Below, one piece after another: positions 2,347-43,470 of a stretch of 64,000 bases of DNA. The stretch is taken from assembly GCF_031198435.1 (NCBI RefSeq), contig NZ_CP133548.1, positions 124,001 to 188,000 of the forward strand, in the 5' to 3' direction. Source of the stretch: Pleionea litopenaei (GTDB lineage Bacteria; Pseudomonadota; Gammaproteobacteria; Enterobacterales; Kangiellaceae). A program made the translations under genes and the position numbers. Numbering within the stretch: position 1 is the stretch's first letter; each line of letters opens with the position of its first letter. Below the pieces are notes generated by a model. The model did no database searches. It saw only the letters and a list, made by a program, of their open reading frames with translations, and was not told the DNA's origin.

Positions 2347-2835
2347 GTGCTGCTAAGTAATAAATATAGAACAAATACCGGCTTGTTACTGATTTTGCTA
2401 AGCTTTTTTTCATTAAAAGGATGCGAGCAATACGACTACAACTCACAATTCTATTTATTATCCGGTGAACAAAAAGCGCTCTCCGATTATCGGGGAGAGT
2501 GGTTGTTGATTAATTTTTGGGCAGAATGGTGTCGGCCGTGTCTAGAAGAGATTCCTGATCTTAACCAATTGCATCAGAAAAAGGACGCGCTGAATTTATC
2601 GGTGTTAGCCGTGAGTTATGAGCCCGAGGCCAATGAGCGCCTGCTATCGGCAAAACAACGTTTTAATATGGAATACCCGATGATGGCGACCGATCCTGAG
2701 CCAAGGGTGCCCTTTACCCGTCCAAACAAACTTCCCGCATTCTATTTGGTCACTCCGCAAGGTGAAATTACCGGACCATTCTACGGAAAAGAGAGTCTGC
2801 AAGAGGTTGAGCAACGAATTCAAGCGACAGAATAG
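2347..2835 (+). CDS. TlpA-like thioredoxin-fold lipoprotein
   Basis: A 162-residue exported thiol-disulfide protein. The N-terminus is hydrophobic and ends in a lipobox-like FSLKGC, with the lipidated Cys at residue 26. The thioredoxin active site is C62-R-P-C65 in the context NFWAEWCRPCLEEIP, typical of TlpA/ResA-type periplasmic reductases. A cis-Pro region (RPNKLPAFYLVTPQG) follows. The start is GTG, with AGGGA at 2333-2337 nine bases upstream; no better in-frame ATG exists. It is a single gene with no cytochrome c maturation partners nearby, so the substrate is unknown. Confidence 0.8.
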   Translation: MLLSNKYRTNTGLLLILLSFFSLKGCEQYDYNSQFYLLSGEQKALSDYRGEWLLINFWAEWCRPCLEEIPDLNQLHQKKDALNLSVLAVSYEPEANERLLSAKQRFNMEYPMMATDPEPRVPFTRPNKLPAFYLVTPQGEITGPFYGKESLQEVEQRIQATE

Positions 2836-2943
2836 TTCATATTTTGCGATTTTGTGCGCAAGTACAGGTTTTAACTACTTATTTTCATCAAAATTATCAT
2901 TATACTAACCTTAACTAAATTCGTTAATTAGGTGGACAGTGGC

Positions 2944-3468
2944 ATGACCAAGCTACTCGGGCAAATAGCGGCGGCAGTTTTGCTGCTTTTTTCTTATGGA
3001 ATAGGGTGGACAGCTGAGCCAACAGAGCCGGTTGCTGAGTCGTTGGAGGCACTCAAGAAAGAAGTGCTTTCTATTAACCGAGAGCTGTTTATCTTGGAGG
3101 AAGACCTATTATTCCCGTCGTCAACCCAAGTAGCCTTCTACGTTTCACTCGATTTGGGTTACTTTTTTAAACTCGACAGTATCAAGTTAAAAGTCGACGG
3201 GGAGTGGATTACTCAATATTTATACACCGCTCGTGAGTTAGATGCATTGAAGCGAGGGGGCGTGCAACGTCTTCATGTTGATAATCTACAAGCGGGTGAA
3301 CATGAGGTCGTGGCCGTGGTCATCGGTTACGGGCCTGAAAACCGCGAGTATAAGCTCGCCGTATCAAATAAGTTCGAAAAAGACACCGAAGCCAAACTTT
3401 TGGAGCTAAAGATCGTCGATGACGATACCAAGCAGCAACCAAAATTAACGATTAAAGAGTGGAACTAA
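2944..3468 (+). CDS. Exported protein, first gene of Glt-like motor cluster
   Basis: I do not recognise a named family. The protein (174 residues from the ATG at 2944) has a signal peptide (hydrophobic LGQIAAAVLLLFSYGIGW), a short charged helix (ESLEALKKEVLSINRELF), then a beta-rich domain and a charged tail, so it is probably periplasmic. The ATG is preferred to an in-frame GTG at 2932 because AGGTGG at 2930-2935 then sits eight bases upstream as a ribosome site. A TATACT at 2901-2906 could be a -10 box for the whole cluster, but I see no good -35. It lies nine bases before the next gene, which suggests co-transcription with the TPR and ExbBD genes. Confidence 0.6.
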   Translation: MTKLLGQIAAAVLLLFSYGIGWTAEPTEPVAESLEALKKEVLSINRELFILEEDLLFPSSTQVAFYVSLDLGYFFKLDSIKLKVDGEWITQYLYTARELDALKRGGVQRLHVDNLQAGEHEVVAVVIGYGPENREYKLAVSNKFEKDTEAKLLELKIVDDDTKQQPKLTIKEWN

Positions 3469-3477
3469 TTTAGCCCA

Positions 3478-5397
3478 ATGAAGAACGAAACTGCTCAAAA
3501 GCAGCTTGTTGGATGGATTAGTTTTTTCTGGATCTCCCTAAGCAGCCTAGTTGCTCAAGCTGAAGAAAGCCCTCAGACTCGATTGTCACTCGATGATAAT
3601 CGGCCGATAAAGTTGCAAGAGCTCGCATTCGGAGAGGTGCTGTATGATTATTATCAGCAAAATTACTTTGCCGCGCTAACCCGTTTAGATGTCGCTGAAA
3701 CTCGCCAGGAAGTAGGTCATCATCGAGTCCATTTACAGTTGATGCGCGGAGTGATGTATCTGAGCTATGGCATGCTTAATTCTGCTGAACAGATTTTTGA
3801 GCAGATACTCACCGATGAGAGTCGCTCAGATATCATCAACCAAGTTCGTTTTTATCTTGGTAAAACGCAGTACATGCATGGAAATTTAGAGCAATCGCTT
3901 AACTATTTTTCGATGGTGAATATTGAGTTGCCAACCAATTTAGAGCAAGAAAAGCGCTTAATCATGGCGCAAATCGCTTTTGAAATGGGCCAGATAGAAA
4001 AAGCAGTTGAGCTTTTGAAAACCGTTGATCCGGAAACTCAAGCGGGGCAGTACGCGACCTTCAACCTCGCGGTATTTTTGTTAAGACAAGATCAGGTAGA
4101 TGGTGCAATTGAACTGTTTGATCGTCTCTATCCAAACCGACAGTCTTCGGACGTTGAACGCAGCTTATACGATCGAGCAAATCTAGCACTAGGTTATTAC
4201 TTTCTCGAGAAAAAACAAATTGAGCCAGCGCAGCAGCATTTATTGAATGTGCGACTCGACAGTTTATACAGCCATCGAGCGTTGCTGGCACTGGGGTGGA
4301 CTTACTACGAGAGCGGCCAAGAAGATAAAGCGGTTGCTCATTGGTTAGAGTTAGATCGACGTGATCCTCGAGAACCTGCAGTACAAGAAGCAAAAATGGC
4401 ATTGGCGTTTGCTTATTATCGAAACGGCGCCAAGAAAGAGGCGTTAGAGGCTTTTGTTAATGCAGCGGCATCATTTGGTGAGCAGCTGAATTTGATCGCT
4501 CAAGCCAAAGTAGAAATGGATCAAGAAATCTTTCAAAAATGGCTCGATGAAAGAGGCATATTTGGAGACAAAGTTTTCGCCAAATGGGCGAGTGGTGATG
4601 TGCCTGTGGCAGGAAAAGCCATAGAGTATTACTTTCAAGAAGTGGTTGCGAGTAACGAGTTCAATCAGTTTTTTCAGCGCTTTCAAGAAACCTCTCATTT
4701 AATGAGTGTGTTACAGCGATGGCAAAGGCAGTTACCTGTTTACCAACAAATGCTTAGCAACCATGAGCTTAGATATCAGACGTTAAAACCCAAAGTTGCT
4801 GAGCGGCAACAGCAATTGATTCAAGGTGAACATCTAGAGCAGTTTCAAGCGCTCAAGCGTCAAGCGGAGCAACGATTACAAAGTGATGATTTGTGGGTGT
4901 TGGCTGATGAAGAAGAGCTCGAATTGAGAGCCGATCTACAACGAGTAAAAAACTCGCTTGAGAAATTAAAGCAAGCAGGTTTTGATATGGAAGATCAAGA
5001 AGAACAATGGAGAAGAATTTATGGCGCGCTTCTATGGAAGTTAGGTGTAGATTATGGACCACGACGCTATCAATTAGAGAAAGGCGTAGCTGATGCTGGC
5101 GCTGCAATTGACGAGTTAACAACGCGTAATATATCTCTTTCTGAAGCTGAGCAAAAAGCTGCCTCGCGGTTTGCTAACTACGATCAAAGAATCATTGGAC
5201 TGCAGCAACGCATTGAACAAATGTTGCAACAGATTGAATTACAGAAGTTACGTTCTCAAGAGCAAATGCGCCAAGTGTTAGAAAAGAAACTCAAGAAGCG
5301 AGAGCAAGAGCTCGATTTTCTACTCGCCCAAACCGAGTTATCGATCGCAAAAATTCAAGATGAAGCCGTTAATCGTTTATTGGAGAATACCCAATGA
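3478..5397 (+). CDS. Periplasmic TPR and coiled-coil protein of Glt-like cluster
   Basis: A 639-residue exported protein. An N-terminal signal peptide (WISFFWISLSSLVAQAEES) is followed by degenerate tetratricopeptide repeats over roughly residues 45-320 (for example ALLALGWTYYESGQEDKAV). The C-terminal 230 residues form a long Gln/Glu/Leu-rich coiled coil ending in KKREQELDFLLAQTELSIAK. This architecture is like the large TPR subunits GltC/GltD (AgmU) of the Myxococcus gliding machine, but similarity of repeats alone does not prove orthology. The stop overlaps the start of the next gene by four bases (ATGA), which implies translational coupling. Confidence 0.65.
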   Translation: MKNETAQKQLVGWISFFWISLSSLVAQAEESPQTRLSLDDNRPIKLQELAFGEVLYDYYQQNYFAALTRLDVAETRQEVGHHRVHLQLMRGVMYLSYGMLNSAEQIFEQILTDESRSDIINQVRFYLGKTQYMHGNLEQSLNYFSMVNIELPTNLEQEKRLIMAQIAFEMGQIEKAVELLKTVDPETQAGQYATFNLAVFLLRQDQVDGAIELFDRLYPNRQSSDVERSLYDRANLALGYYFLEKKQIEPAQQHLLNVRLDSLYSHRALLALGWTYYESGQEDKAVAHWLELDRRDPREPAVQEAKMALAFAYYRNGAKKEALEAFVNAAASFGEQLNLIAQAKVEMDQEIFQKWLDERGIFGDKVFAKWASGDVPVAGKAIEYYFQEVVASNEFNQFFQRFQETSHLMSVLQRWQRQLPVYQQMLSNHELRYQTLKPKVAERQQQLIQGEHLEQFQALKRQAEQRLQSDDLWVLADEEELELRADLQRVKNSLEKLKQAGFDMEDQEEQWRRIYGALLWKLGVDYGPRRYQLEKGVADAGAAIDELTTRNISLSEAEQKAASRFANYDQRIIGLQQRIEQMLQQIELQKLRSQEQMRQVLEKKLKKREQELDFLLAQTELSIAKIQDEAVNRLLENTQ

Positions 5398-8219
5398 AGC
5401 GAATTTTAATAGTTTTATCACTGACTTCTTTTATCAGTGCTTGCGCACTGTTTTCCGGTGGCGGGTTGCGTGTACCACTCGAAGATATTGAGCCGACGGT
5501 TAGCTTTATTGATCGACAAAAAGTCGAAGTCCCTGAATCGAATATTGATGATGTTGATGCACAAGACGTTGTCAATTCTTACCAACGATTGATGCAGTCG
5601 CCTCACGCTGAAGTTCGCCGACAAGCAATGCGTCGGTTAGCCGATCTAAATATGCGCTTGGCGGAAGAAAAAGAATTGTTGATTGCCGATGGAAGAGATC
5701 CAAATGCCTTACCTCCTGCAATTCGAGATGCCAGTTATCAGCGAGCCGCCGATTTATACAAGCAAGTATTGAATGACTTTCCTCAGCAAACCGATGATGC
5801 AAGTATTCGTTATCAACTCGCTCGAGCATTGGCTTTACAAGGTGAAAGTGATGCGTCGTTGGCTCAAATGGATCAGTTAGTTGCTAATCATGATAAGTCG
5901 AATGAGATGGTCGAAGTTCAATTCCGTCGAGGAGAAGCTTACTTTTTGCGTCGCGACTACCTGCAAGCCGCAGCAGCTTATCAACAAGTACTTTCTTTTG
6001 GTGATGAAACAGAGTTTTACGACAAGGCGCTGTATAAAAATGGTTGGGCTTTATTTAAGCAATTTGATTACGAAGCCGCATTAGATAATTTTTTCCCATT
6101 GCTAGAAAGACTTCGCTCTGGCTTGGCGCAAGAAGGGGATGTACGTGCTGTTCTTGACGATTTAGTCGCCGATACGCAACGAGCGATTTCATTGTCATTT
6201 TTACACTTAGAAGGACCTGAGTCGGTTAAAAAATATTTTGCTAAAGTCGGGCGTAAAGCCTATGAGCATGAGACCTATGCAAAACTCGCTGATTTATACC
6301 TACAGCAGCAACGCTTTCAAGATGCGGCCAGCAGTTATCTAACATTTGTAGAAACTAATCCACTCCATGAACAAGCAGCGTGGTTCCAAATTAAAGTGAT
6401 CGACACCTACGTCAATGGCGGATTTCCTTCTTTGGTTTTGCCTGCAAAAGAAGATTTTCTGGTTAAGTTTGGTGTCAAAAGTGAGTACTGGAGTACGCTA
6501 ACCAATGAACAACAATTGGCTTTGCGTGCAAATGTTGTGCAAAACCTCGATGAAGTTGCCAGCTTTTATCACGCGCAAGCACAGCAACAGCAAAAAGCCG
6601 AGAACTATCGAGTGGCTGCCGAATGGTACAGTCACTTCTTAGTTTTGTATGAAGACGAAACTCAAAGAGCGCCTTACCACTTCTTAATGGCTGAGGCATT
6701 ATTTGATGCAAAAGATTATGCACAAGCGATTGAGGCTTTTGATACCATTGCTTATCAATACAAGCGTGCTGCGAAACAAGAAGTTGCGGCATACAATATC
6801 TTAGTTGCCTACCAGGCGCTTGCCGATGGGCAGCCGAACAATAAAACACTTTATCAAAATCGAATTGTTGATTACTCGTTATTGTATTCCGCGTACTTTC
6901 CAAACGCTAATCGAACGCCAGAGTTGCTTACTCGCACCATGGAATTTTATGTTGAGTCCGATCAGCTAGAGCAAGCCATTCGAACCGCTGAAAAGTTAAT
7001 CAGAGTGCCAGCGACAAAAACCGATACTCAAATGACGCGAGCAAAGGTTGTTATCGCCAACGGTTTATTCGACTTAAAATATTACCCGCAAGCTGAATTA
7101 GCAATTACCGATGTTTTAAACAGTCCAGGATTAACGAGGGAGCAGCGTGGAAACTTTAATGAGCGTTTAGCCGAATCAATTTATCAGCAAGCAGAAGTAC
7201 TCATTGCGCAAAAAGATTTGGAAGGTGCCATTGCCGAGTTACAACGACTGGTAACCCGAGTGCCCAGTGCAACAATTCGTCCAAATGCAGAGTTAGAAGC
7301 CGCCGTTTTAATGTTGCAATTAGAAAAGTGGCCAGAGGCAAAAGTTGCTTTGGAGGGTTTCAAGAGTCGATATTCAAGTCATCCTTTAGCGAAAGGACTG
7401 GATCAGCGATTGGCCTTTGTGTATGAAAAATTAGAACTTTGGTCGTTGGCTGCTTCTGCTTATGGTCGAGTGTCTGAGCAAACCAATGAGCCTGAAAAGC
7501 AAGCGGATTTAAAGTGGTATTCAGCGCAGTTGTTTTTAAAAGCTGAGCAGCCGCTGCTAGCCATAGAGGCATTCAAAGCTTACTACTGGGCTTACCCGTC
7601 GCCTCTTGAGCGTTCAGTTGAAGCGCAAGCGAAATTAGTCACGCTGTATGATGAGCAAAATGATCCAGAAAAAAGAGATTTTTGGCGCGATAAATTAATC
7701 CAGCAATACTACACGCTAGGAGACAAAAACACTCCGAGGACACGCTACCTTGCTGCACAAATGTCTTTTCAAATGGCTGAGCCCGACTTTGTTAAGTTTC
7801 AACAAATTAAATTAACGGTTCCGTTAGCTGCATCATTGAAGAAAAAGCGTGCAGCGATGGATAAAGCACTTAAGCAATATACTGAAATTGCTAAGTTCAA
7901 AGTCGCAGAGTTCACCACCGCAAGTACTCATAGAGTAGGGCAGCTGTACTTGATGTTAGCCAAAGACATTATTAATTCAGAACGTCCGAGTGGCATGTCA
8001 GAAGAAGAAGCGGAAGAATATAGTTATTTGATTGAAGACCAAGCTTTTCCAATCGAAGAAAAGGCCATTGAGATCTTTGTGTCTAATTCTGATCGCGTCT
8101 TGAGTAGTATTTACGATCAATGGGTTAAGTTGTCGTTTGCTGAGCTAGCAAAGCTCCAGCCTGCTCGTTACAACAAGCAAGAAGTGGTTGAATCATGGAT
8201 AGGAGGGCAACAACCATGA
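5394..8219 (+). CDS. Large TPR lipoprotein of Glt-like cluster
   Basis: A 941-residue probable outer-membrane lipoprotein. The signal peptide ends in the lipobox ISAC, Cys at residue 17 (MKRILIVLSLTSFISAC), and residue +2 is Ala, so no Lol-avoidance Asp is present. Most of the protein is made of TPR-like helical pairs, such as YQLARALALQGESDASLAQ, VAAEWYSHFLVLYED and AEALFDAKDYAQAIEAFDT. It sits between two other TPR genes and overlaps both by four bases (ATGA junctions at 5394-5397 and 8216-8219). It is likely a scaffold connecting the inner-membrane motor to the outer membrane, by analogy with the large TPR subunits of Agl-Glt complexes. Confidence 0.65.
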   Translation: MKRILIVLSLTSFISACALFSGGGLRVPLEDIEPTVSFIDRQKVEVPESNIDDVDAQDVVNSYQRLMQSPHAEVRRQAMRRLADLNMRLAEEKELLIADGRDPNALPPAIRDASYQRAADLYKQVLNDFPQQTDDASIRYQLARALALQGESDASLAQMDQLVANHDKSNEMVEVQFRRGEAYFLRRDYLQAAAAYQQVLSFGDETEFYDKALYKNGWALFKQFDYEAALDNFFPLLERLRSGLAQEGDVRAVLDDLVADTQRAISLSFLHLEGPESVKKYFAKVGRKAYEHETYAKLADLYLQQQRFQDAASSYLTFVETNPLHEQAAWFQIKVIDTYVNGGFPSLVLPAKEDFLVKFGVKSEYWSTLTNEQQLALRANVVQNLDEVASFYHAQAQQQQKAENYRVAAEWYSHFLVLYEDETQRAPYHFLMAEALFDAKDYAQAIEAFDTIAYQYKRAAKQEVAAYNILVAYQALADGQPNNKTLYQNRIVDYSLLYSAYFPNANRTPELLTRTMEFYVESDQLEQAIRTAEKLIRVPATKTDTQMTRAKVVIANGLFDLKYYPQAELAITDVLNSPGLTREQRGNFNERLAESIYQQAEVLIAQKDLEGAIAELQRLVTRVPSATIRPNAELEAAVLMLQLEKWPEAKVALEGFKSRYSSHPLAKGLDQRLAFVYEKLELWSLAASAYGRVSEQTNEPEKQADLKWYSAQLFLKAEQPLLAIEAFKAYYWAYPSPLERSVEAQAKLVTLYDEQNDPEKRDFWRDKLIQQYYTLGDKNTPRTRYLAAQMSFQMAEPDFVKFQQIKLTVPLAASLKKKRAAMDKALKQYTEIAKFKVAEFTTASTHRVGQLYLMLAKDIINSERPSGMSEEEAEEYSYLIEDQAFPIEEKAIEIFVSNSDRVLSSIYDQWVKLSFAELAKLQPARYNKQEVVESWIGGQQP

Positions 8220-8854
8220 TAGAGCAAGCCCATTGTCGAATGGCATCTCCTTTACTTGCCATAGTGACTATTATAGTTTTGAGTATGCTGAGCGGGTGTG
8301 GGAGCATGAAAGCCAGACCGACGGACTCAGCAACGGTTCTAGAAACACAAAGTGGACCCGCATTTTTAGATGAAGAGCTACCCTCTGGGTTAACGAGCTT
8401 ATTGAGCCAAGCGCGCACCGAACATCAGAATGAAAACTCCGAGCGGGCCTTGCAGATATTGCAACAAGCGGCGCAGGAATTTGCCGAGTATCCTCAGCCT
8501 GATGTTAATAGAGCGATAGTCTATATGCAGCTAGAAGATTATGAACAAGCGATGCAAGCAACAGAAAACGCACTGTCAAAACGAGAGCTGTATGCCCCTG
8601 CTGTGAATTTACAGGGCGTTTTACATCGTATTAATGGCGATTTCGAGCAGGCTAAGCAATCCTATCAAAATGCCATTGCTTCAGAACCAAACTACGCCAA
8701 CGCCTTTTTGAATCTCGGTATTCTCGCCGATTTATATTTACAAGATTTTACCTTGGCACTTTCATCTTTCGAGGCGTATTTGAACCTCGTTAAAGAAGAT
8801 GAGAAGGTAAAAAACTGGGTCGTTGACCTTAAGCAGCGAATCCCCGAGGAGTGA
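8216..8854 (+). CDS. TPR lipoprotein of Glt-like cluster (GltE/AglT-like)
   Basis: A small TPR lipoprotein. The ATG at 8216 is chosen because AGGAGGG at 8201-8207 lies eight bases before it and it overlaps the previous stop in ATGA; an in-frame ATG at 8195 lacks a comparable site. The signal peptide ends in MLSGC, a clear lipobox. Three TPR motifs follow (SERALQILQQAAQEF, YEQAMQATENALSK, FEQAKQSYQNAIASEP, YANAFLNLGILADLY). The size and layout resemble GltE/AglT of Myxococcus, an outer-membrane TPR lipoprotein. That assignment is an inference from architecture and context. Confidence 0.65.
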   Translation: MIEQAHCRMASPLLAIVTIIVLSMLSGCGSMKARPTDSATVLETQSGPAFLDEELPSGLTSLLSQARTEHQNENSERALQILQQAAQEFAEYPQPDVNRAIVYMQLEDYEQAMQATENALSKRELYAPAVNLQGVLHRINGDFEQAKQSYQNAIASEPNYANAFLNLGILADLYLQDFTLALSSFEAYLNLVKEDEKVKNWVVDLKQRIPEE

Positions 8855-8859
8855 TTGGT

Positions 8860-9165
8860 ATGTCAAAGTTGATTATCTACACGATTGTTTGCGGATTATC
8901 CATTGCTATCAATGCCGCAGAGAATAAGTCTCAATCGACAACAGTAGTGCAGCAAACCCAGTTAGGATTAACCATTAAAGGTAATCAAGAGCTGCCGAAT
9001 ATTTTGTACATAGTGCCCTGGAAAAAAGGTCCTGGAAATGACATTTCACCCATCCAAGGGCGAATTGTTGATGAGGTGTACGGTCCAGTTGACTACAATG
9101 TATTCAAGCGGCAGATTAAGTTGTATAGAGAACATCAAGAGCAGAAATCAACACCAGAACAGTGA
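8860..9165 (+). CDS. Small exported protein of Glt-like cluster
   Basis: A 101-residue protein of unknown family with a signal peptide (MSKLIIYTIVCGLSIAINAAE). The mature part contains LPNILYIVPWKKGPG, a compact patch that would be a good probe for homologues. The ATG at 8860 is preferred to a GTG at 8851 because GAGGAG at 8846-8851 is then its ribosome site. It lies between the TPR lipoproteins and the TolQ-type gene on the same strand, so it is probably an accessory periplasmic subunit. A gap of about 100 bases with a dyad and a second TATACT follows, which may allow separate expression of the motor genes. Confidence 0.55.
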   Translation: MSKLIIYTIVCGLSIAINAAENKSQSTTVVQQTQLGLTIKGNQELPNILYIVPWKKGPGNDISPIQGRIVDEVYGPVDYNVFKRQIKLYREHQEQKSTPEQ

Positions 9166-9191
9166 AGTTTATCTCATTTTGCAAGGTTCAA

Positions 9192-9221
9192 TAACCGATT
9201 GATAGTCGGTTAGGTTATACT
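9192..9221 (+). promoter_or_regulatory. Dyad and possible -10 box upstream of the ExbB/TolQ-type gene
   Basis: TAACCGA at 9192-9198 and TCGGTTA at 9206-9212 form a perfect 7-base inverted repeat with a 7-base spacer. It is followed directly by TATACT at 9216-9221, a good -10 hexamer, with no convincing -35. The dyad could be an operator or a small hairpin separating the TPR genes from the motor genes. Confidence 0.3.
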
Positions 9222-9263
9222 GCAGTGATAATTTTAAAACTCAATAATAGTGGAGAGTAACGT

Positions 9264-9995
9264 ATGAAGGGGTTGGCATTGGTGGCACTAGCGCAGAGCG
9301 CCACAGCAGCTGCACCACAAGAAGAGCCCGGCTTATTTATGACCATCGTTAAGTTTTTCCAAGACGGTGGTGCCTTTATGTATCCGATTTTAATTGTTAT
9401 GGCACTTGGTATTGCCATTGCAATCGAACGATATATTTATCTTCAATTGGTTAAAACTAAAAATCAGCAGGTTTGGAAAAAACTGTTACCGGTTTTAAAT
9501 AAAGGTGAGTTTCGACAAGCTTTGAATCTTGCTTCGAATTCGAACGCAGCGATTGGGCGAATTTTGGCTTATGGTTTGAGTAAGTTTAGCCAAGGTAAGC
9601 GTCACGACGATCTCGAAATGGCCATGGAAGAAGGTCTAATGGAGATCATGCCACGACTCGAAAAGCGCACTCAATACCTAGCGACCTTTGCAAACATTGC
9701 AACCTTATTGGGACTGCTCGGGACAATTCTTGGTTTGATAAAAGCATTTACCGCCGTCGCTAATGTTGATCCGGCCGAAAAAGCTAACCTTCTTTCTGCG
9801 AGTATTTCGGTCGCGATGAACACCACTGCATTTGGGTTGATGGCAGCAATTCCACTACTGCTGGCTTTCACCTTCTTGCAAACCAAGACCACAGAAATTA
9901 TTGATAGCTTAGAAATGGCATCGGTGAAGTTTGTTAACGTGATTCGCTCTGCAAAGCCAGCGGAACCAAAAGTACGACCAACTGCCAAGCCTTAG
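9264..9995 (+). CDS. MotA/TolQ/ExbB family proton-channel protein (AglR-like)
   Basis: A 243-residue inner-membrane protein with the three-helix TolQ/ExbB layout: one helix at about residues 36-58 (GGAFMYPILIVMALGIAIAI), a cytoplasmic loop containing the usual ALNLASNSNAAIGRILAYGL, then two helices (FANIATLLGLLGTILGLIKA and VAMNTTAFGLMAAIPLLLAF) with the conserved small residues and Thr of the family. It would form the pentameric stator around the two ExbD-type proteins encoded next. GGAGAG lies about eight bases before the ATG. In Myxococcus gliding motors the equivalent is AglR. Its neighbours exclude an ordinary Tol-Pal or TonB system, since no tolA, tolB, pal or receptor belongs to the cluster. 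Confidence 0.85.
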   Translation: MKGLALVALAQSATAAAPQEEPGLFMTIVKFFQDGGAFMYPILIVMALGIAIAIERYIYLQLVKTKNQQVWKKLLPVLNKGEFRQALNLASNSNAAIGRILAYGLSKFSQGKRHDDLEMAMEEGLMEIMPRLEKRTQYLATFANIATLLGLLGTILGLIKAFTAVANVDPAEKANLLSASISVAMNTTAFGLMAAIPLLLAFTFLQTKTTEIIDSLEMASVKFVNVIRSAKPAEPKVRPTAKP

Positions 9996-10006
9996 GATAA
10001 CAAGCT

Positions 10007-10537
10007 ATGTGGAAACGTCGCGCAAAGCGCTCGCGAGAAGTTAATACCGAACTAAACATCACGGCCTTTATGAACTTAATGGTGGTGTTGGTTCCCTTTT
10101 TGTTGATTACCGCAGTGTTCTCGCAAGTATCCATCTTGAATTTAAATTTGCCGGGTACTGGCGCTGCCGAGCAAACGCCGGACGAACCTGCTAAAGCCCT
10201 TGAAGTGATCATTCGAAAAGAACGCTTAGAATTGTATGAGCGAGCTTCTGGAAGTATGCGGGCTATCGAAAATACGGACGATGGTTACGATTTCATAAAG
10301 TTGAACCAAGTGCTTCAGCAAGTGAAATCTCAGGCTGACTTTATCAACGAAACTTCGATTACTTTATTGTTAGAAGAAGACATTGAATATGAAGTGCTTG
10401 TGCAAACGATGGATGCCGTCAGACTGATGAAGATTGAGTCTGAGGAAAATGGCGGAAAGGTGATAACCTACGAAGAGCTTTTTCCTGACATTTCAATCGG
10501 TAGTGCGCCGGTACTAGACGAACAGGCGGAGAGCTGA
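10007..10537 (+). CDS. ExbD/TolR family protein lacking the transmembrane Asp
   Basis: A 176-residue TolR/ExbD-type subunit with a short cytoplasmic N-terminus, one helix (NLMVVLVPFLLITAVF) and a periplasmic domain. In ExbD, TolR and AglQ the start of the helix carries a conserved Asp needed for proton flow. Here that position is Asn23 (ITAFMNLMVVLVP), encoded by AAC, one transition from an Asp codon. The gene follows the ExbB-type gene by 11 bases and precedes a second ExbD-type gene by two bases. The periplasmic part is longer than in simple ExbD proteins. The pair probably assembles as a heteromer in which only the other copy conducts protons. Confidence 0.8.
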   Translation: MWKRRAKRSREVNTELNITAFMNLMVVLVPFLLITAVFSQVSILNLNLPGTGAAEQTPDEPAKALEVIIRKERLELYERASGSMRAIENTDDGYDFIKLNQVLQQVKSQADFINETSITLLLEEDIEYEVLVQTMDAVRLMKIESEENGGKVITYEELFPDISIGSAPVLDEQAES

Positions 10538-10539
10538 GT

Positions 10540-11049
10540 ATGAAACTATCGGCCCGAGCTAAACGTATGGAGCGCCATCACAAGCGCTATGGAAAAGGAA
10601 CGTTACAGCTCGTTTCTTTAATGGATATTTTTACGATTTTGGTGTTCTTCTTATTGGTTAACTCATCAACTAATGAGCAGCTACCCTCATCAAAAGCCTT
10701 GACCCTACCTAAGTCGACGTCGGAGCAATTGCCCGAAGAAACGTTACTGATTTTGGTCAACAATAACGATATTTTAGTTCAAGGTCGTAAAATTATTACC
10801 GCGGACGAAATACTTGCGTCGGAAGACAATATCATTCCGGTTTTAAAAGAAGAGCTTGAGTTCCACCTTTCTCAACGTCTTGGTATCGTTAAAGGCGTCG
10901 ATGATCCCGGTGAGGTAACTATTATGGGGGACAGAGAAATTCCCTATAAGTTACTCAAGCGAATTTTGTACACATTGTCAGAGTCGAATTATAAGGATAT
11001 TTCTCTGGCGGTCGCTCGGAAATCCGAAAAAGAAGAGGTAGCCAATTAA
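10540..11049 (+). CDS. ExbD/TolR family protein with intact proton Asp
   Basis: A 169-residue second ExbD/TolR subunit. The helix starts with SLMDIFTILVFFLLV, and Asp29 occupies the canonical proton-carrier position missing in the preceding paralogue. A charged N-terminus (KRMERHHKRYGKG) faces the cytoplasm, and the remaining 125 residues form the periplasmic domain. It is separated from its neighbours by two bases on the 5' side and one base on the 3' side, so it is clearly part of the operon. Two TolR-type genes after one TolQ-type gene is the arrangement of aglR-aglQ-aglS in Myxococcus. Confidence 0.85.
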   Translation: MKLSARAKRMERHHKRYGKGTLQLVSLMDIFTILVFFLLVNSSTNEQLPSSKALTLPKSTSEQLPEETLLILVNNNDILVQGRKIITADEILASEDNIIPVLKEELEFHLSQRLGIVKGVDDPGEVTIMGDREIPYKLLKRILYTLSESNYKDISLAVARKSEKEEVAN

Positions 11050-11050
11050 C

Positions 11051-11998
11051 ATGAGTAGCTTCATCTATTCGGTTGATCCAAAGTTACCTTGGGAAATTTC
11101 TGAAGAAGAAAGCCAACGGTATCGAAAGATACTTTTGGTTATCTTGGCATTTGTTATTATTTTTGGATTGGTCATTCCCTTTATCAATGTGCCACAGCCA
11201 GTGCGAGTCGTTAATAAAGTACCCGATCGACTGGTCAAGTTGGTAATAGAACAAAAGAAAGTGGTTATTCCTCCTCCGGTTGTCGAAGTGAAACCCGAAG
11301 AGAAAAAAGAAGAGCCTGAGCCAGAACCTGAAGAGAAGAAGCCCGAGCCGAAGCCTGAGCCTAAACCTGAGCCCAAGCCAAAACCGAAGCCAAGTGAAGC
11401 CAAGAAAGCGGCAGAAAAGAAAGCCGCTGTGTTTGCTGATACCTTTGGTGATGTTGTGAATAATAGCGGCTTGGATAACTTAACGAGCGAGAAAAATCTT
11501 TCACAAGGCGGCGCGCAAGAATCGAAGTTAAAACGCGATCAACTCGGCGATGCTGCGAAAGCGAGTACCGGTGGAATTGAAGTGGGTCCTGCTAGTAGTT
11601 CACAAGGTACGGGCGGAAAGCTTCAAGGAAGTGGTTCAACCAAAGTTGAAAGTAAGATTGAAAATGTCGCTGGCGCTTCAAGTTCGGCATCAGAGTCGAC
11701 GACAGGTGGCATTCGTTCGTCAGAAAATATTCAGTTAACCTTTGATAAAAATCAGGGTCGTATTTTCGTCTCTTATAATCGGGCATTGCGTAAAAACCCT
11801 TCGTTACGAGGTGTGGTGGTCTTTAAGCTAACCATTCAGCCATCAGGAAAAGTGTCTGATGTGAGCATCGTTCGAAGTGAATTAAAGGATGCTGATTTAG
11901 AACGGCGTTTGGTCAGTGCAATTAAACGTTTAGACTTTGGATCACAAGACGTCGCTGTCTGGACGGGTAATTACCCGATAGACTTTTCTCCTCAATGA
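11051..11998 (+). CDS. TonB-like energy transducer with AgmX/PglI-type C-terminal domain (GltG/GltJ-like)
   Basis: A 315-residue inner-membrane-anchored periplasmic protein. It has a cytoplasmic N-terminus, one helix at about residues 27-46 (ILLVILAFVIIFGLVIPFI), a Pro/Glu/Lys-rich rod at about 74-117 built from EPKP-type repeats, a Ser/Gly-rich linker, and a C-terminal domain (residues 230-315; RIFVSYNRALRKNPSLRGVV, then VVFKLTIQPSGKVSDVSIV). That domain matches the AgmX/PglI C-terminal type found in GltG and GltJ of the Myxococcus gliding machine rather than classical TonB. It would carry motor force across the periplasm to the TPR lipoproteins. It is the last gene of the cluster, followed by a hairpin at 12006-12033. 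Confidence 0.8.
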   Translation: MSSFIYSVDPKLPWEISEEESQRYRKILLVILAFVIIFGLVIPFINVPQPVRVVNKVPDRLVKLVIEQKKVVIPPPVVEVKPEEKKEEPEPEPEEKKPEPKPEPKPEPKPKPKPSEAKKAAEKKAAVFADTFGDVVNNSGLDNLTSEKNLSQGGAQESKLKRDQLGDAAKASTGGIEVGPASSSQGTGGKLQGSGSTKVESKIENVAGASSSASESTTGGIRSSENIQLTFDKNQGRIFVSYNRALRKNPSLRGVVVFKLTIQPSGKVSDVSIVRSELKDADLERRLVSAIKRLDFGSQDVAVWTGNYPIDFSPQ

Positions 11999-12063: not shown

Positions 12064-13053
12064 ATGTTCTTTCAAAAGTTCCTAACTAGCCTGTTAACAC
12101 TGAGTGCCTGTTTTGTCGTTGCAATTCCTTCGGTTCACGCGCAGTGGTACAGCCATAGTTTCGAAGTGATGGGAACGTCTGCAAAAGTTGAATTATGGTC
12201 GGACTCACCATCAAAGGCAGAGACTTTAATCAAGCAAGTCGAAGTTGAGATGGAGCGGATTAATCAATTGATGAGTCCGTATATTTCATCGAGCGAGTTG
12301 TCAAAAATTAATGCTGCGGCTGGCGCAGATCCCTTAATTATTTCAAAAGAACTCCTTAAACTGATTGAGCGATCCATAGCATTTTCTGAATTAAGTCATG
12401 GCGCTTTTGACATAACCTTTGCCAGTGTTGGCTATAAATATATCTATCGTGATGGAGTCGCGCCCAGTCAATTATTTATTGATGAGCATAAAAATTTAAT
12501 CAACTATCACTCAATCAAGCTTGATCAGCAGCGTTCGACGATTTTATTAGAAAAGCAGGGAATGAAAATTGATCTTGGTGGAATTGCCAAAGGTTATGCT
12601 GTTGATCAATGCATCGATATCATACGACAAGCAGGTATTCAACATGCTTTCGTTCAAGCCGGCGGTGATAGTCGAGTATTAGGCGACAAACGAGGGCGCT
12701 TGTGGACGATAGGCATTCGTCATCCGCGGCAAGAAGCAGGGGTGATTACACAGTTACCGTTAGCGAATGTAGCGATTTCGACGTCTGGAGATTATGAGCG
12801 ATTTTTTATAGAAAATGGTGAACGGGTTCATCATATTATTGACCCCCAAACAGGTCGCTCATCGAATAAAAGTGTCAGCGTTACCATTATTGCTAATGAT
12901 TCGCTGACGGCCGATGCACTTTCTACCACGGTCTTTATTCTTGGAGCGAAAAAAGGACTCGAATTAATTGAATCGATGCCAGAAGTGTCGGCAATAATCA
13001 TTGATGCACAGGGTAAGTTTCACTATTCGAGTGATTTTTTAGCGGCTAATTGA
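12064..13053 (+). CDS. apbE: FAD:protein FMN transferase ApbE
   Basis: A 329-residue periplasmic flavin transferase that attaches FMN through a phosphoester bond to Thr or Ser of target proteins such as NqrC or RnfG, in a Mg-dependent reaction. Family signatures seen are EVMGTSAKVELW near the N-terminus, KIDLGGIAKGYAVDQ, QAGGDSRVLG, and TADALSTTVFILGAKKG with the metal-binding Asp and Thr. The N-terminus holds both a lipobox-like LSAC and a possible signal peptidase I site after SVHA, so it may be a lipoprotein or soluble. No Nqr or Rnf genes are in the window. It lies 65 bases after the Glt-like cluster, behind a weak terminator. Confidence 0.9.
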   Translation: MFFQKFLTSLLTLSACFVVAIPSVHAQWYSHSFEVMGTSAKVELWSDSPSKAETLIKQVEVEMERINQLMSPYISSSELSKINAAAGADPLIISKELLKLIERSIAFSELSHGAFDITFASVGYKYIYRDGVAPSQLFIDEHKNLINYHSIKLDQQRSTILLEKQGMKIDLGGIAKGYAVDQCIDIIRQAGIQHAFVQAGGDSRVLGDKRGRLWTIGIRHPRQEAGVITQLPLANVAISTSGDYERFFIENGERVHHIIDPQTGRSSNKSVSVTIIANDSLTADALSTTVFILGAKKGLELIESMPEVSAIIIDAQGKFHYSSDFLAAN

Positions 13054-13239
13054 TTCGACTTATCGCAAAAGTCCATCTATATTCTTTTCTATCTCTATTC
13101 GAGAACGCAAATCCGTTTCCATCTGTTTTCGATTGAGTTATCGTTTATCCCGCGCAATACTTACTAAGCCTTCAGACGAAGGGTGTTGTCTAGTAATGTA
13201 TTAACTCTACAAAAACAAACAGAACAGGGAGTTAATCCT

Positions 13240-16131
13240 ATGCTAAAAGAAAACCTGTTTAAGCTGAGTTTGATGGCTGTCGCTATGACCGGCGTTGTCG
13301 CCGTCAACGATGCTCAAGCTCAAGATGAAGCAGCTAAGGACGAGAAAGTCGTTATCACTGGTTCTCGTATCCGTCAATCACAGCTGGCAACAGCCTCTCC
13401 CGTCTTGACTCTCTCACGTGAAGATATTGAGAAAACTGGCTTAACGTCAGTCGCTGATGTTTTACAAAAAATGTCAGCTAGTGGTGCCGCGTTAAATACA
13501 CGATTCAACAGCAGTGGTAACTTTGGTATGCCGTCTGATGGTGGTGGTGTTGGTGCAGGTGGTGCTGAAGTTGATTTACGTCACCTTGGCTCGCGCCGTG
13601 TACTTGTATTAGTTGATGGTCGTCGCTGGGTAAGCGGTGCATCGGCTAGTGGTGTTTCTGGCGCTGTGGATTTAAACACCGTGCCCTTAGCCATCGTCGA
13701 ACGCATCGAGATTTTAGAAGATGGTGCGTCATCGATTTATGGTTCTGATGCCGTCGCGGGTGTCGTTAACGTCATCACTCGTAAAGACATCGATGGTTGG
13801 GAAATGAACGCCTCTTATGGTGGATTCGGCGATTTTGTTACCGGTATTGATGACGGTGACACCACCAGTATCGAATTTACCTTTGGTGCGGTCGGCGCTC
13901 GTCACAGTATTGTTAGCTCATTCAGTCATGTCGACCAAAACGTCGTCTTTTCAAAGAACCGTGATCTGGCCGACAGCCCAGTTGAAGGAACCGGAACCAC
14001 TCGTGGAAGTTCTGCGACACCGACGGGTCGCTTTTTATATGATGATAATGGAACCACCGTTAATGTAACGCCAAATGATGGCGCGTCGGGGTTATTAAAT
14101 TTCCCTACCGATTTTCATAACTTTACCGACGATGACCGCTTTAATTATGCGGCCTACAACTTGTACGTAACTCCGAGTCAACGTACTAATGTTTTTACTC
14201 GTGCGAAATACGACTTAACCAATACGGTGTCTTTCTTTGCACAAGCAATGTTTAACAACCGTAAGTCACAAAACCAAGCAGCGCCAGAGCCAATTTTTAT
14301 TGGGCCCGAAGCTGGTACGGGTGGCATTGCTGATACGGTCAGTATTGATGTGACTAACCCTTACAACCCTTTCGGCGTGACGTTGGATGAAAATAATTTT
14401 ATCTTTGCTGGTCGCCGTCCAATAGAAGCAGGTCCTCGCTCTTATTCTCAAGACGTTAACACCTATTTCTTCACCACGGGCTTCGAGGGGTCGTTCGATA
14501 TAGGTGACAGTCCTTTTTATTGGGATGCGTCTATGTCTTGGGGTACTAACCGCGCGACTCAGTTGAAAACAGGCGCACTGAATGCCGCTAGAATTAAGCG
14601 AGCATTAGGGCCTTTGGCTGAATGTCAGGCCGATCCTTTGTGTGTTCCTTTAAATATATTTGGCGCCGGATCCATTACTCAAGATATGTTGGATTATATT
14701 TCTTTCACACAGAAAGATGTGAGTGAGAATAAAATTCAAATGTTCGCGGCCAACATAACGGGTGATCTTTTTGAAATGCCAGCGGGCTATGCAGGATTTG
14801 CTGCAGGCTATGAGCATCGCGTTCAAAATGGTTTCTTTGAGCCAGACGTTATTGCTGCAAGTGGAGAGAGCATGGGGATCCCAGCTAGCCCTACCCGCGG
14901 CGGTTACGATGTTGATGAATACTTCATCGAGGCAATGTTCCCATTAATGGCCGACTCTTCTGGAGCATCAATGCTTGAGTTGACAACGGCCGTACGTCGC
15001 TCTGAATACACGACGACGTCAGATGTTAGCTTTGATCAAACAACCACTAAATTTGGATTGTTATTCCGTCCAATGACAGAGTTAACGTTACGTGCCACGA
15101 TGGCTGAAGGCTTCCGAGCACCGTCGATTGGAGAGTTCTTCAATACTGGAGCGCGAAACGATGCTACCTTAACCGATCCTTGTTTGAACTCAGCCAACGA
15201 AACTCGTTGTGAGCAAGTTTGGGGACCAATGGACTTTGTTGCGTTAGCAAACTTAGGACAAACGCAAATTTCGGTAGTGACCGGTGGTAACGACCAATTG
15301 AGCCCTGAAGAAACAGAAAGCAGCATGTTTGGTGCGGTTTATAGTCCTGATTGGTTCTCGGGTGACGACTTTATCGAACAGATGAACTTCGAGTTGTCGT
15401 TCTACGATCATCAAATTGACAATGCAATCGGCGCAGTGGATGCTCAATTGCAGTTGAATGAGTGTGTGGTCAATGGAAACGATGATTTCTGTAATGGTAT
15501 TGCGCGGGCGAATGGCGTTGGTATCACTCGTTTTGACAACGGTTTACAAAACTTGAGTCGAATTGAAACGTCAGGCTCTGACTTTAAGTTAAGCATGATT
15601 TCTCAAGAGAGTGACTTAGGTCGGTTTAAGCTAACTTGGCGAAATACCTTCGTGAATGAATACACGCAAACGGTATTCGGACAGTCTAGTGGAGATCTTG
15701 ATGGCATTGAGTTTGGTAGCAATCCTGACCGAGCGATTCCAGAATGGAAATACGACTTGACGTTAGACTGGGCAAAGAATGATTGGAGTGCGAGCACGAC
15801 AATGCGATATTTGTCGAAAATTTACGAAAGCTGTTCTGATTTCCTAGATAACACGCCGAACAGTTTGGCTAATTTAGGTTTGTGTAGCAATCCGAACTTT
15901 TCAGACAACTCATTATCAACCAACATAATGGATGAAACTTACTACTTTGATGCGCAAGTGAGTTATGCGACTCAAATAGGAGGATTCAATTCAGTTATTT
16001 CTGTTGGTGCACGTAACTTGTTTGATCAAGATCCACCACGATGTACACAATGTGACTTGAATGGCTATCTGCCTGGTATTTACGATGCACAAGGTCGTTA
16101 TTGGTACGTTAAGTTTTCTATGCGTCCATAA
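13240..16131 (+). CDS. TonB-dependent outer-membrane receptor
   Basis: A 963-residue receptor. The ATG at 13240 is chosen because AGGGAG at 13226-13231 is eight bases upstream; an in-frame TTG at 13183 would add 19 residues before the signal peptide. The signal peptide ends near NDAQAQ. The probable TonB box is [10 protein letters not shown], and the plug domain shows [29 protein letters not shown] and [20 protein letters not shown]. The barrel ends in an aromatic residue near the C-terminus ([10 protein letters not shown]). This is the large receptor type common in marine gammaproteobacteria for peptides, glycans or other ligands. The substrate cannot be told from sequence, and there is no adjacent transporter. 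Confidence 0.9.
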
Positions 16132-30989: not shown

Positions 30990-32351
30990 ATGAACTATTA
31001 CAGTACTCGAAATACCTCATTAAAGCTCTCTTTTTCGGATGCCGTCCTGCAAGGATTAGCACCAGACGGAGGACTACTGGTACCTGAGCAGCTCCCTACT
31101 TTGTCTGCAAACTGGCCATCTGACTGTGAATATATAGATCTGGCGACGCGAATTTTCCAGCCATTTATGCAGTCTGACTTTTCCGAAGTGTCAATTCGCT
31201 CATTGGTTGAGCAAGCTTATCAATCGTTCAATATTGCCGATGTGGTTAAGCTGGTTGATATCAATGAGTATAGAATACTTGAATTATTTCATGGACCAAC
31301 GCTCGCCTTCAAAGATATTGCATTGCAGTTTTTAGGGCGGGTTCTTGGTGAATTATTAGATCATCGTGGTCAACAACTGGTTGTATTAGGAGCAACCTCC
31401 GGAGACACTGGGGGAGCGGCGATCAATGCGCTTAGTGGCGTTGAGCAGTGCAAAGTCTTTATGCTTTATCCTCGAGGTCGAGTTTCAACGTTGCAAGAAG
31501 CACAAATGACTCGTTCAATTGGCGATAATATTTTTCCTATGGAGCTAGCGGGGAGTTTCGATGACGCCCAAGACATTGTAAAGAGTTTGTTTGCTGACCA
31601 GTCTTTTCGCTCTCGCATGTCATTGACGGCGGTTAATTCCATAAACTGGTGCCGTGTTATGGCGCAAATGACTTACTATGCTTATGCTTGCCTTAAAAGT
31701 GGGTCGCAACCCGTATCATTTTCGGTCCCGACTGGAAACTTTGGTGATGTACTGGCCGGATTTTATGCTAAAAAAATGGGTTTCGCGGTAGGTAAGTTAA
31801 TCGTAGCGTGCAATGAAAATGACTTAATCGCTCGTTTTGCTGAAACGGGTATTTATCAACCTCAGCAATCCCATTTAACCTTGAGTCCGGCGATGGATAT
31901 TCAGCTGGCATCAAATTTTGAGCGTTTACTTTTTGAGCTCAGCGGCCGCGATTCTTCGTACATTGCGGCAAAAATGCAACAGCTTAATCAACAGGGGCAT
32001 TTTTCGGTTGAACCGGATATATTAGAGCAGTTTAATCAGCTCTTCGAGGTTTACTCGGTCAGTGATCAGCAAACGGCTGCGACGATGCGAGAGATGGCTG
32101 ATTTAGGTTACGTTGTCGATCCGCATACGGCGGTTGGAATATACGCTCGTTCACAGTCGTCAGAAACCAATGTTATTTGTTTGTCTACCGCTCATCCACT
32201 AAAATTTGCAGAACTAGTCGAAGAGGTGACCGGGCAGCTTCAAACATTTACTCCGGAGTTAAAAGCCATCATTCAGTCTTCGCCGAAAAAATTTGCGACC
32301 ACGAATGATCGCAGTCAAGTAATGCAGTTTATAACCGAAAGGTGTCAATAA
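30990..32351 (+). CDS. thrC: Threonine synthase ThrC
   Basis: A 453-residue PLP enzyme converting O-phosphohomoserine to threonine. The ATG at 30990 gives the family N-terminus MNYYSTRNTSLKLSFSDAVL; the open frame continues upstream to a TTG at 30882 but that part is not conserved. Lys108 in HGPTLAFKDIALQF is the PLP Lys, and GATSGDTGGAAI is the phosphate-binding loop. The stop overlaps the next start (TAATG). No thrA or thrB is in the window, and I see no attenuator leader in the 250 bases upstream. Confidence 0.93.
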   Translation: MNYYSTRNTSLKLSFSDAVLQGLAPDGGLLVPEQLPTLSANWPSDCEYIDLATRIFQPFMQSDFSEVSIRSLVEQAYQSFNIADVVKLVDINEYRILELFHGPTLAFKDIALQFLGRVLGELLDHRGQQLVVLGATSGDTGGAAINALSGVEQCKVFMLYPRGRVSTLQEAQMTRSIGDNIFPMELAGSFDDAQDIVKSLFADQSFRSRMSLTAVNSINWCRVMAQMTYYAYACLKSGSQPVSFSVPTGNFGDVLAGFYAKKMGFAVGKLIVACNENDLIARFAETGIYQPQQSHLTLSPAMDIQLASNFERLLFELSGRDSSYIAAKMQQLNQQGHFSVEPDILEQFNQLFEVYSVSDQQTAATMREMADLGYVVDPHTAVGIYARSQSSETNVICLSTAHPLKFAELVEEVTGQLQTFTPELKAIIQSSPKKFATTNDRSQVMQFITERCQ

Positions 32352-38928: not shown

Positions 38929-39103
38929 AAAAAAAACACTTTAAACTGGTCGGAGGATTTTTAATAATAAAGTCCAAGACTTCATGATATTGAGAAGTAA
39001 TTTTCAATATTTTGGTGTTTTATCCAGCACTAAAAAGCGTTTAGGTTGGATGAAAAATCAACAGAAAATACACAAAAAAGTTAAAACGGGGAAGGTAAAT
39101 AAC

Positions 39104-40966: not shown

Positions 40967-40981
40967 AAAAGGTTTGGACAG

Positions 40982-42349: not shown

Positions 42350-42368
42350 GCTTAATAGAGTATATAGC

Positions 42369-42391
42369 AAGGCCGGATACGTCCGGCCTTT
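42369..42391 (+). terminator. Intrinsic terminator or attenuator inside the DUF1302-MMPL cluster
   Basis: AAGGCCGGA (42369-42377) and TCCGGCCTT (42382-42390) form a 9-base GC-rich stem with a TACG loop. Only TTTGTT follows, so it may attenuate rather than stop transcription. Confidence 0.7.
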
Positions 42392-42473
42392 GTTATTATT
42401 AGGAAGACTAAAAATTTTACCGGTTTATCGAATTCTCTATGAAACTGGGTCGCGTTTAGGTTAAGAGGTAGTA

Positions 42474-43451: not shown

Positions 43452-43470
43452 TTTGGGGAGATATATTTTT

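Follow-up and report, generated by a model that had tools for sequence, protein, structure and literature searches.

In Myxococcus xanthus, the Agl-Glt gliding machine and the Agl-Nfs spore-coat machine combine a motor, a TonB-like rod and tetratricopeptide repeat (TPR) proteins (PMC3169522, PMC3858216, PMC4488436). Luciano et al. (2011; PMC3169522) described a smaller core, composed of aglR, aglQ, aglS, gltC, gltD, gltE, gltG and one extra gene, which is clustered in Gammaproteobacteria and other groups and whose function was given as unknown, and Wartel et al. (2013) repeated the gammaproteobacterial core and considered it as a possible basal transport machinery. Among the matches listed in a literature search that left most subscription journals, supplements and bioRxiv outside its scope, there was no functional study of this core after 2011 and 2013. 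Here, we analyse a nine-gene core of this type in a stretch of 64,000 nucleotides of the Pleionea litopenaei genome (NZ_CP133548.1, positions 124,001 to 188,000), referred to as the window, in whose coordinates positions are given unless stated otherwise. The existence of the gammaproteobacterial core is already published (Luciano et al. 2011, PMC3169522); what is new is the partnership of the core with a distinct subclass of DUF3570 proteins and with surface redox genes, and this partnership is well supported. We consider the odds to lie slightly in favour of the nine genes encoding an engine of the Luciano core type that spans the envelope, is driven by protons and acts on interchangeable clients, here a surface redox complex.

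The window core extends from 2932 to 11998, and consists of nine open reading frames, all on the forward strand and arranged head to tail. Between neighbouring genes there are overlaps of 4 to 25 bases or gaps of 1 to 11 bases, with the exception of a gap of 98 bases between g5 and Q. They encode two exported proteins of no known family (g1 and g5), three TPR proteins (g2, g3 and g4), a TolQ-type channel (Q), two TolR-type subunits (R1 and R2) and a TonB-like rod. As in the core of Luciano et al. (PMC3169522), an AglR-type channel, two TolR-type subunits, a GltG-type TonB-like rod and TPR proteins lie in a single region, but that core comprises seven genes and one extra, and the window nine. 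The three TPR proteins match gltC, gltD and gltE in kind, with the GltE model responding far under its cut-off. The group A genes of M. xanthus (gltA, gltB, gltF and gltH to gltK) were not recognised beside the window core, no genome-wide search for them having been made.

The first-pass annotation of this DNA had described the locus as a complete machine of nine packed genes outside Myxococcus. The nine genes and their composition were borne out, with Pfam matches to TPR in three proteins, to MotA_ExbB in one and to ExbD in two, as was the AgmX/PglI C-terminus of the rod, whose last 90 residues exceed the cut-off of the corresponding NCBIfam model (NF033768; 62.6 bits, cut-off 40). The description as complete was not supported, the parts list being that of the seven-gene core with two small genes and not that of the 14-gene Glt/Agl machine; and its occurrence outside Myxococcus is true, but had been reported (Luciano et al. 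2011, PMC3169522; Wartel et al. 2013). The span originally proposed, 2944 to 11998, located the core, but g1 may start at a GTG at 2932, and two recurrent neighbours, an ApbE gene (12064-13053) and a TlpA-like thioredoxin gene (2347-2835), had been left out.

We investigated the distribution of the core in a panel of 370 Gammaproteobacteria genomes, in which the rod domain, g3, DUF3570 and a dihaem lipoprotein were counted, and in two sets of loci: 60 rod loci, selected from 103 AgmX/PglI matches over cut-off outside the window, and 80 named g3 loci, which are the best 80 of 533 g3 relatives ranked by similarity to the g3 query. The 60 rod loci supplied the hidden Markov models of the core genes; those of the neighbouring genes came from the same loci and later from the named loci as well. 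g3 served as the marker of the core, the remaining eight genes not being verified genome by genome, and some loci share one genome (for example L048 and L133, with identical g3), so that row counts are not independent. The AgmX/PglI domain was found over cut-off in 89 of the 370 genomes. g3 was present in 51 of the 60 rod loci, 41 of which contained all nine genes in order, and the order was broken in none of the 51. Among the named loci, many of them cut by contig ends, the nine genes were found in order in 58/80 and the order was intact in 76/80, the remaining four having g1 and g2 placed after the rod. The possibility raised at first pass, that these genes might not be conserved together, is refuted by these counts, which place the arrangement well beyond coincidence. 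All g3 relatives with a stated phylum, in a single scan of genome contigs, belonged to Pseudomonadota.

We identified a recurrent set of families flanking the core loci, comprising ApbE, TlpA, DUF3570, DUF4266, a protein with an SH3 domain and a barrel, a second barrel, a dihaem lipoprotein resembling the alpha subunit of hydrazine synthase, and LamG, monohaem and Tat proteins. The two small outer-membrane barrels are paralogous, as are GltA and GltB of M. xanthus (PMC4488436), and the one without the SH3 domain corresponds to model TIGR04565 (124.6 bits in L075); DUF3570 reaches 142.8 bits in L051. The dihaem lipoprotein is about 860-1020 residues long when whole and contains two or three CxxCH motifs, with the hydrazine synthase alpha middle domain present in the one sequence scanned, while the LamG protein has two CxxCH motifs and the monohaem protein one. 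No Pfam match and no sequence relative in the PDB were found for the Tat protein, and its predicted fold, with a predicted local distance difference test (pLDDT) score of 48.9, was too poor for a structure search. Within the 80 named loci we identified ApbE in 33, TlpA in 46, DUF3570 in 19 and DUF4266 in 18, and at least one gene of the partner set, TlpA excluded, in 57. In two Aliiglaciecola loci (L162 and L175) the core and the partner set lie side by side.

Meheust et al. (2021; PMC8238504) identified DUF3570 as a substrate of ApbE and described flavinylation clusters of DUF3570, DUF4266, thioredoxin and ApbE. The same four families recur here, but the core-linked DUF3570 forms a separate subclass, found with the dihaem lipoprotein, with LamG proteins and with the TolQ/TolR/rod core. 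The words 'ExbB', 'TPR' and 'gliding' do not occur in the main text of that study, and the main-text parts of Luciano et al. 2011 (PMC3169522) covered here mention no redox partner.

The association is most distinct for DUF3570. The profile of the core-linked type splits the family into members scoring at least 268 bits and members scoring at most 163 bits, with one piece of 170 bits at a contig end, from a genome already counted, falling between the classes. Core-type DUF3570 was found in 56 of the 370 genomes, in 30 families, and g3 was present in all 56, compared with 90/370 overall (hypergeometric 6e-43, a value that, like the genome counts, treats genomes as independent). Linkage counts are a better guard against shared ancestry than genome counts, and 41 of 57 core-type DUF3570 genes lie no more than 27 kilobases from g3, start to start. 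The dihaem lipoprotein (at least 348 bits) was found in 54/370 genomes, 53 of them with g3 and 51 with core-type DUF3570. The association is one-way, from core-type DUF3570 to g3.

The window genome itself contains the full partner set, on contig 1 at about 1,392,750-1,404,653, where DUF3570 (135.7 bits), DUF4266 (82.5 bits), TlpA, the two barrels and the dihaem lipoprotein are accompanied by divergent monohaem, LamG and Tat genes. ApbE, DUF3570, DUF4266 and a thioredoxin-like protein are thus all present, split over two loci, with ApbE at the core. This ApbE, an FAD:protein FMN transferase (12064-13053, forward strand), is directly downstream of the rod and is of the core-linked type: a model of 51 ApbEs, drawn from both core and partner loci but excluding this one, gives it 454 bits (511 if included), compared with 187 and 125 bits for the other two ApbEs of the genome. 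In two genomes of the same order as the window genome (G302 and G122), the partner set directly adjoins the core, and ApbE is its last gene. The dihaem lipoprotein of the window genome shares its middle domain with the hydrazine synthase alpha subunit (PF18582, 55.1 bits, cut-off 26.6; PDB 5c2v, 5e-5); unlike that subunit, the dihaem lipoprotein has a lipobox, PD40 repeats and two CxxCH motifs, and hydrazine chemistry is not implied.

A motor for gliding or surface motility like that of the M. xanthus Agl-Glt machine, in which the rod would push outer-membrane adhesion points, so that the cell moves, and the redox genes would be nearby for regulatory reasons, has to be weighed against this association. 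The parts list is of the Agl-Glt core kind, the LamG proteins and the giant DUF11 proteins of some loci could be adhesins, and the paralogous pair of small barrels found close to many cores is similar in kind to the outer-membrane barrels GltA and GltB (PMC4488436), of which they are analogues only. The restriction of core-type DUF3570 to genomes with g3 (56/56) would be left unexplained, and Luciano et al. (PMC3169522) considered it unlikely that the core alone drives motility. We regard a motility function as very improbable. The proposal made at first pass, that the core may move an envelope component rather than the cell, is supported as a live idea.

Several observations weigh against a redox complex as the client of the engine. 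In the window genome the partner set is 1.26 megabases from the core, and across the panel 15 of 57 core-type DUF3570 genes are on a different contig from g3. Core-type DUF3570 is lacking in 34 of the 90 g3 genomes, indicating that the core does not need this class. Among genomes with only ordinary DUF3570, g3 was found in 20/42, compared with 14/272 of those without DUF3570, and as the former are also richer in g3, part of the signal is accounted for by shared ecology. The dihaem lipoprotein is not found at 348 bits in five of the 56 genomes with core-type DUF3570, and occurs without core-type DUF3570 in three genomes, one of which (G031, a one-contig genome) is also without g3, its match being a partial relative of 630 residues at about 1998596-2000236 of contig 1. 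Two of the 54 well-flanked named loci have g3 without an adjacent motor and rod, the 60 rod loci were picked for a high rod score or likeness to the window, and the window g3 forms a long branch in the g3 tree. The acceptor motif of core-type DUF3570 has lost its glycine in 35 of 49 sequences and kept it in only 14, the protein of the window genome reading SAAS. Finally, the proposal that the redox proteins may be clients is drawn from gene neighbourhood and co-occurrence.

Flavinylation of core-type DUF3570 is nonetheless plausible: all 49 of 49 sequences retain Ala-Ser in the acceptor motif, and it is the frequent loss of the glycine that keeps the assignment at that level. The core proteins were also considered as flavinylation targets and rejected, as no [ST]GA[ST] motif was found in the window core proteins, in which the nearest match is a TGAA in R1, and the motif is rare in their relatives.

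We additionally identified variants of the core in individual lineages. Where a named locus extends 5500 bases or more beyond g3 (54 loci), Q, R1, R2 and the rod follow g3 in 52; in the two others, from Hahella sp. HN01 (L158) and a metagenome-assembled genome (L134), an R1-R2-AgmX rod set was found elsewhere in the same genome, on a separate contig (L219 and L218, respectively). In Hahella sp. HN01 the redox set is beside g1 to g5, and R1, R2 and the rod are on the other contig. The core can thus be split in more than one way. Of the nine rod loci without g3, four contain fragments, contig ends or another rod, and five (L042, L046, L054, L081 and L085, all gammaproteobacterial) are type VI secretion system (T6SS) loci with Q, R1, R2 and an AgmX rod only, and no TPR genes. 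These five contain TssK, TssL and TssM, with TagF in four of them, each family having been confirmed on one representative. We did not match the proton motor on the T6SS side to any known T6SS part.

In nine of the 60 rod loci (L061, L064, L065, L067, L073, L082, L083, L089 and L097), the rods are 446-472 residues long and are followed by a giant gene, the product of which spans 1610 to 2203 residues within the fetched portions and matches DUF11 in the one sequence scanned. In the g3 tree (FastTree, local support), one branch with 100% support carries the giant DUF11-type gene in 11 of its 12 rows, and the giant protein is a candidate surface client. Together with the T6SS-linked loci, this branch suggests an engine with exchangeable clients. 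The window g3 is placed, with 99% support, among 21 rows, consisting of itself, 15 redox-linked rows (loci with any of the ApbE, barrel, DUF3570, LamG, Tat or dihaem genes), four TlpA-only rows and one other, although its long branch means that this placement is not firm.

At the level of individual genes, g1 (2932-3468, forward strand as are all core genes) begins with the GTG at 2932 or possibly with an ATG at 2944, and encodes an exported protein of a helix and a beta-sandwich, 42-54% identical to 21 relatives. The AlphaFold model (pLDDT 84.7) is confident in the helix and sandwich fold, and no function can be read from it as no PDB structure matched at E<=0.001. The product of g5 (8851-9165) is a small exported protein whose position is conserved; searches of Pfam and NCBIfam found nothing for it at E<=1, and neither g1 nor g5 has a Pfam match over cut-off. 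All three TPR assignments are from Pfam. g2 (3478-5397) encodes an exported protein in which a lipobox was not seen and whose charged C-terminus, judged by eye, is probably coiled-coil; it is GltC-like in kind. g3 (5394-8219) encodes a protein of 941 residues with a lipobox-like N-terminus, which we take to be GltD-like in kind and which scores 1175 bits with the A2 profile, a profile that includes it, and g4 (8195-8854) a GltE-like protein of 219 residues, also with a lipobox-like N-terminus. GltC itself is described as soluble and TPR-containing, with a type I signal (PMC4488436). The GltE model, the sole Glt TPR model to respond, gave 15.9 bits with g2 and 22.3 bits with g4 (cut-off 225), and the TPR proteins reached the cut-off of no NCBIfam system, so that the better match to an unrelated system against which the first-pass annotation had cautioned did not appear.

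The proton channel Q (9264-9995; Pfam MotA_ExbB, 101.2 bits) is AglR-like in kind. Its sequence starts with a signal-peptide-like stretch, in which the residues ALA at positions 8-10 are conserved across at least 97% of the 128 relatives aligned. R1 (10007-10537; Pfam ExbD, 53.4 bits) and R2 (10540-11049; 54.5 bits) are TolR/ExbD-type subunits that differ at the position of the membrane aspartate. In sequences aligned from g3-bearing loci, the window included, R1 has asparagine at this position in 109/120 and aspartate in 11 (seven redox-linked, three TlpA-only and one other), whereas R2 has aspartate in 118/118. As R1 is mostly Asn and R2 always Asp, the gammaproteobacterial motor may be asymmetric, with one protonatable TolR subunit. 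In the Agl-Glt machine, AglQ and AglS are both described in a review as carrying the conserved aspartate (PMC9389320), unlike the window pair, in which R1 is without it and only one of the two residues that mark such a machine is present.

The rod (11051-11998) is TonB-like, with one N-terminal membrane helix, a spacer rich in proline, lysine and glutamate and the AgmX/PglI domain at its C-terminus. Its score with the GltG equivalog model is 47.9 bits (cut-off 650), and comparison with the PDB gave nothing useful. It exceeds the cut-off of TIGR01352, a model of the TonB-family C-terminus (33.5 bits, cut-off 27.1), and gives 19.1 bits with Pfam TonB_C, under the cut-off of 24.6. A Ton-like uptake system could be envisaged on this basis, in which the rod would energise a receptor, and ApbE, TlpA and the cytochromes would reduce an imported substrate, for example iron. 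Some flavinylation clusters are indeed linked to iron transport (Meheust et al. 2021, PMC8238504), and the second gene downstream of the core (13183-16131) encodes a barrel of the TonB-dependent-receptor type, with TonB_dep_Rec and Plug domains. This gene had been overlooked at first pass, where the absence of a receptor was proposed, though across relatives it is not a conserved neighbour. We tried the TonB-dependent receptor as a conserved partner and rejected it, as the 60 rod loci gave a single weak hit, on the opposite strand. The window genome contains 12 matches to the MotA/ExbB/TolQ family, such that the core motor is one of several and other motors are at hand for a receptor. We know of no Ton system with a set of three such TPR proteins, and consider uptake an unlikely function.

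The other recurrent neighbour in the window, the TlpA/ResA-like thioredoxin (2347-2835, forward strand), has a WCRPC motif and a Pfam AhpC-TSA match of 56.8 bits, and occupies a position, immediately upstream of g1, that is shared by the TlpA-like genes of several named loci. With only 72.5 bits in a TlpA model built without it (167 bits with a model that contains it), the window protein is a weak member of the TlpA group.

Envelope maintenance of the Tol-Pal kind, in which the core would pull outer-membrane lipoproteins inward or relocate them and the redox link would follow from the abundance of the redox proteins as outer-membrane lipoproteins, would fit the similarity of the motor to TolQ and TolR, whose models are its best NCBIfam matches, with TolQ also the best solved relative of Q (2.3e-10), and the distant similarity of g2 and g3 to the YbgF model. 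Every one of the NCBIfam matches is under the Tol equivalog cut-offs, however (TolQ 72.2 of 221 bits, TolR 32.9 of 127.3 and TolA 25.1 of 59.45), as are the best Ton matches under theirs (ExbB 37.9 of 206.2 bits and ExbD 26.4 of 123.45). The occurrence of g3 in only 90/370 genomes is patchy for a housekeeping system, and in one branch the large surface gene is a different one. A maintenance role appears quite unlikely.

Elsewhere in the window, we noted a single reading frame (32342-34963) with amino acid kinase, ACT and pyridoxal phosphate-dependent decarboxylase domains, by its domains a fused aspartokinase-diaminopimelate decarboxylase; DUF1302, DUF1329 and MMPL genes close together on the forward strand (38984-45792); and overlapping BatD-like and VWA-TPR (BatB/C-like) genes on the reverse strand (55187-58599), in a Bat-type operon arrangement.

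For the engine with a redox client, we propose that Q and R1/R2, presumed to act as a pair, would make up an inner-membrane motor of a 5:2-like kind, which would pull or turn the rod and so carry force across the periplasm. The AgmX/PglI end of the rod may hand this force to the TPR proteins beneath the outer membrane, namely g2 and the putative lipoproteins g3 and g4, while g1 and g5 may serve as small periplasmic adaptors. The TPR proteins would in turn act on the two small barrels, helping large surface proteins to cross the outer membrane or to move along it. In the subclass to which the window belongs, the client would comprise a DUF3570 barrel flavinylated by the core-side ApbE, together with TlpA, DUF4266, the two paralogous barrels, the dihaem lipoprotein and the LamG dihaem, monohaem and Tat-exported proteins. 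The step powered by the motor would probably be export, assembly or placement of the large surface proteins and not the flow of electrons as such, as electron transfer needs no such force. A broader proposal is possible but doubtful: the core would be a general outer-membrane engine powered by protons, with interchangeable clients, and in a large gammaproteobacterial branch it would build or drive a flavin-haem redox complex at the surface. This would amount to a mechanically energised extracellular redox machine, with an asymmetric motor that uses only one protonatable TolR subunit.

The role of the core was unknown in 2011 and guessed at in 2013, and its association with redox genes names concrete candidate clients, which can be tested in cultured organisms. 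The Asn/Asp pair of R1 and R2 offers a natural means of testing what use 5:2 motors make of their two axle subunits. If the proposal is true, Glt-like motors and DUF3570 flavinylation, two unexplained fields, would be joined.

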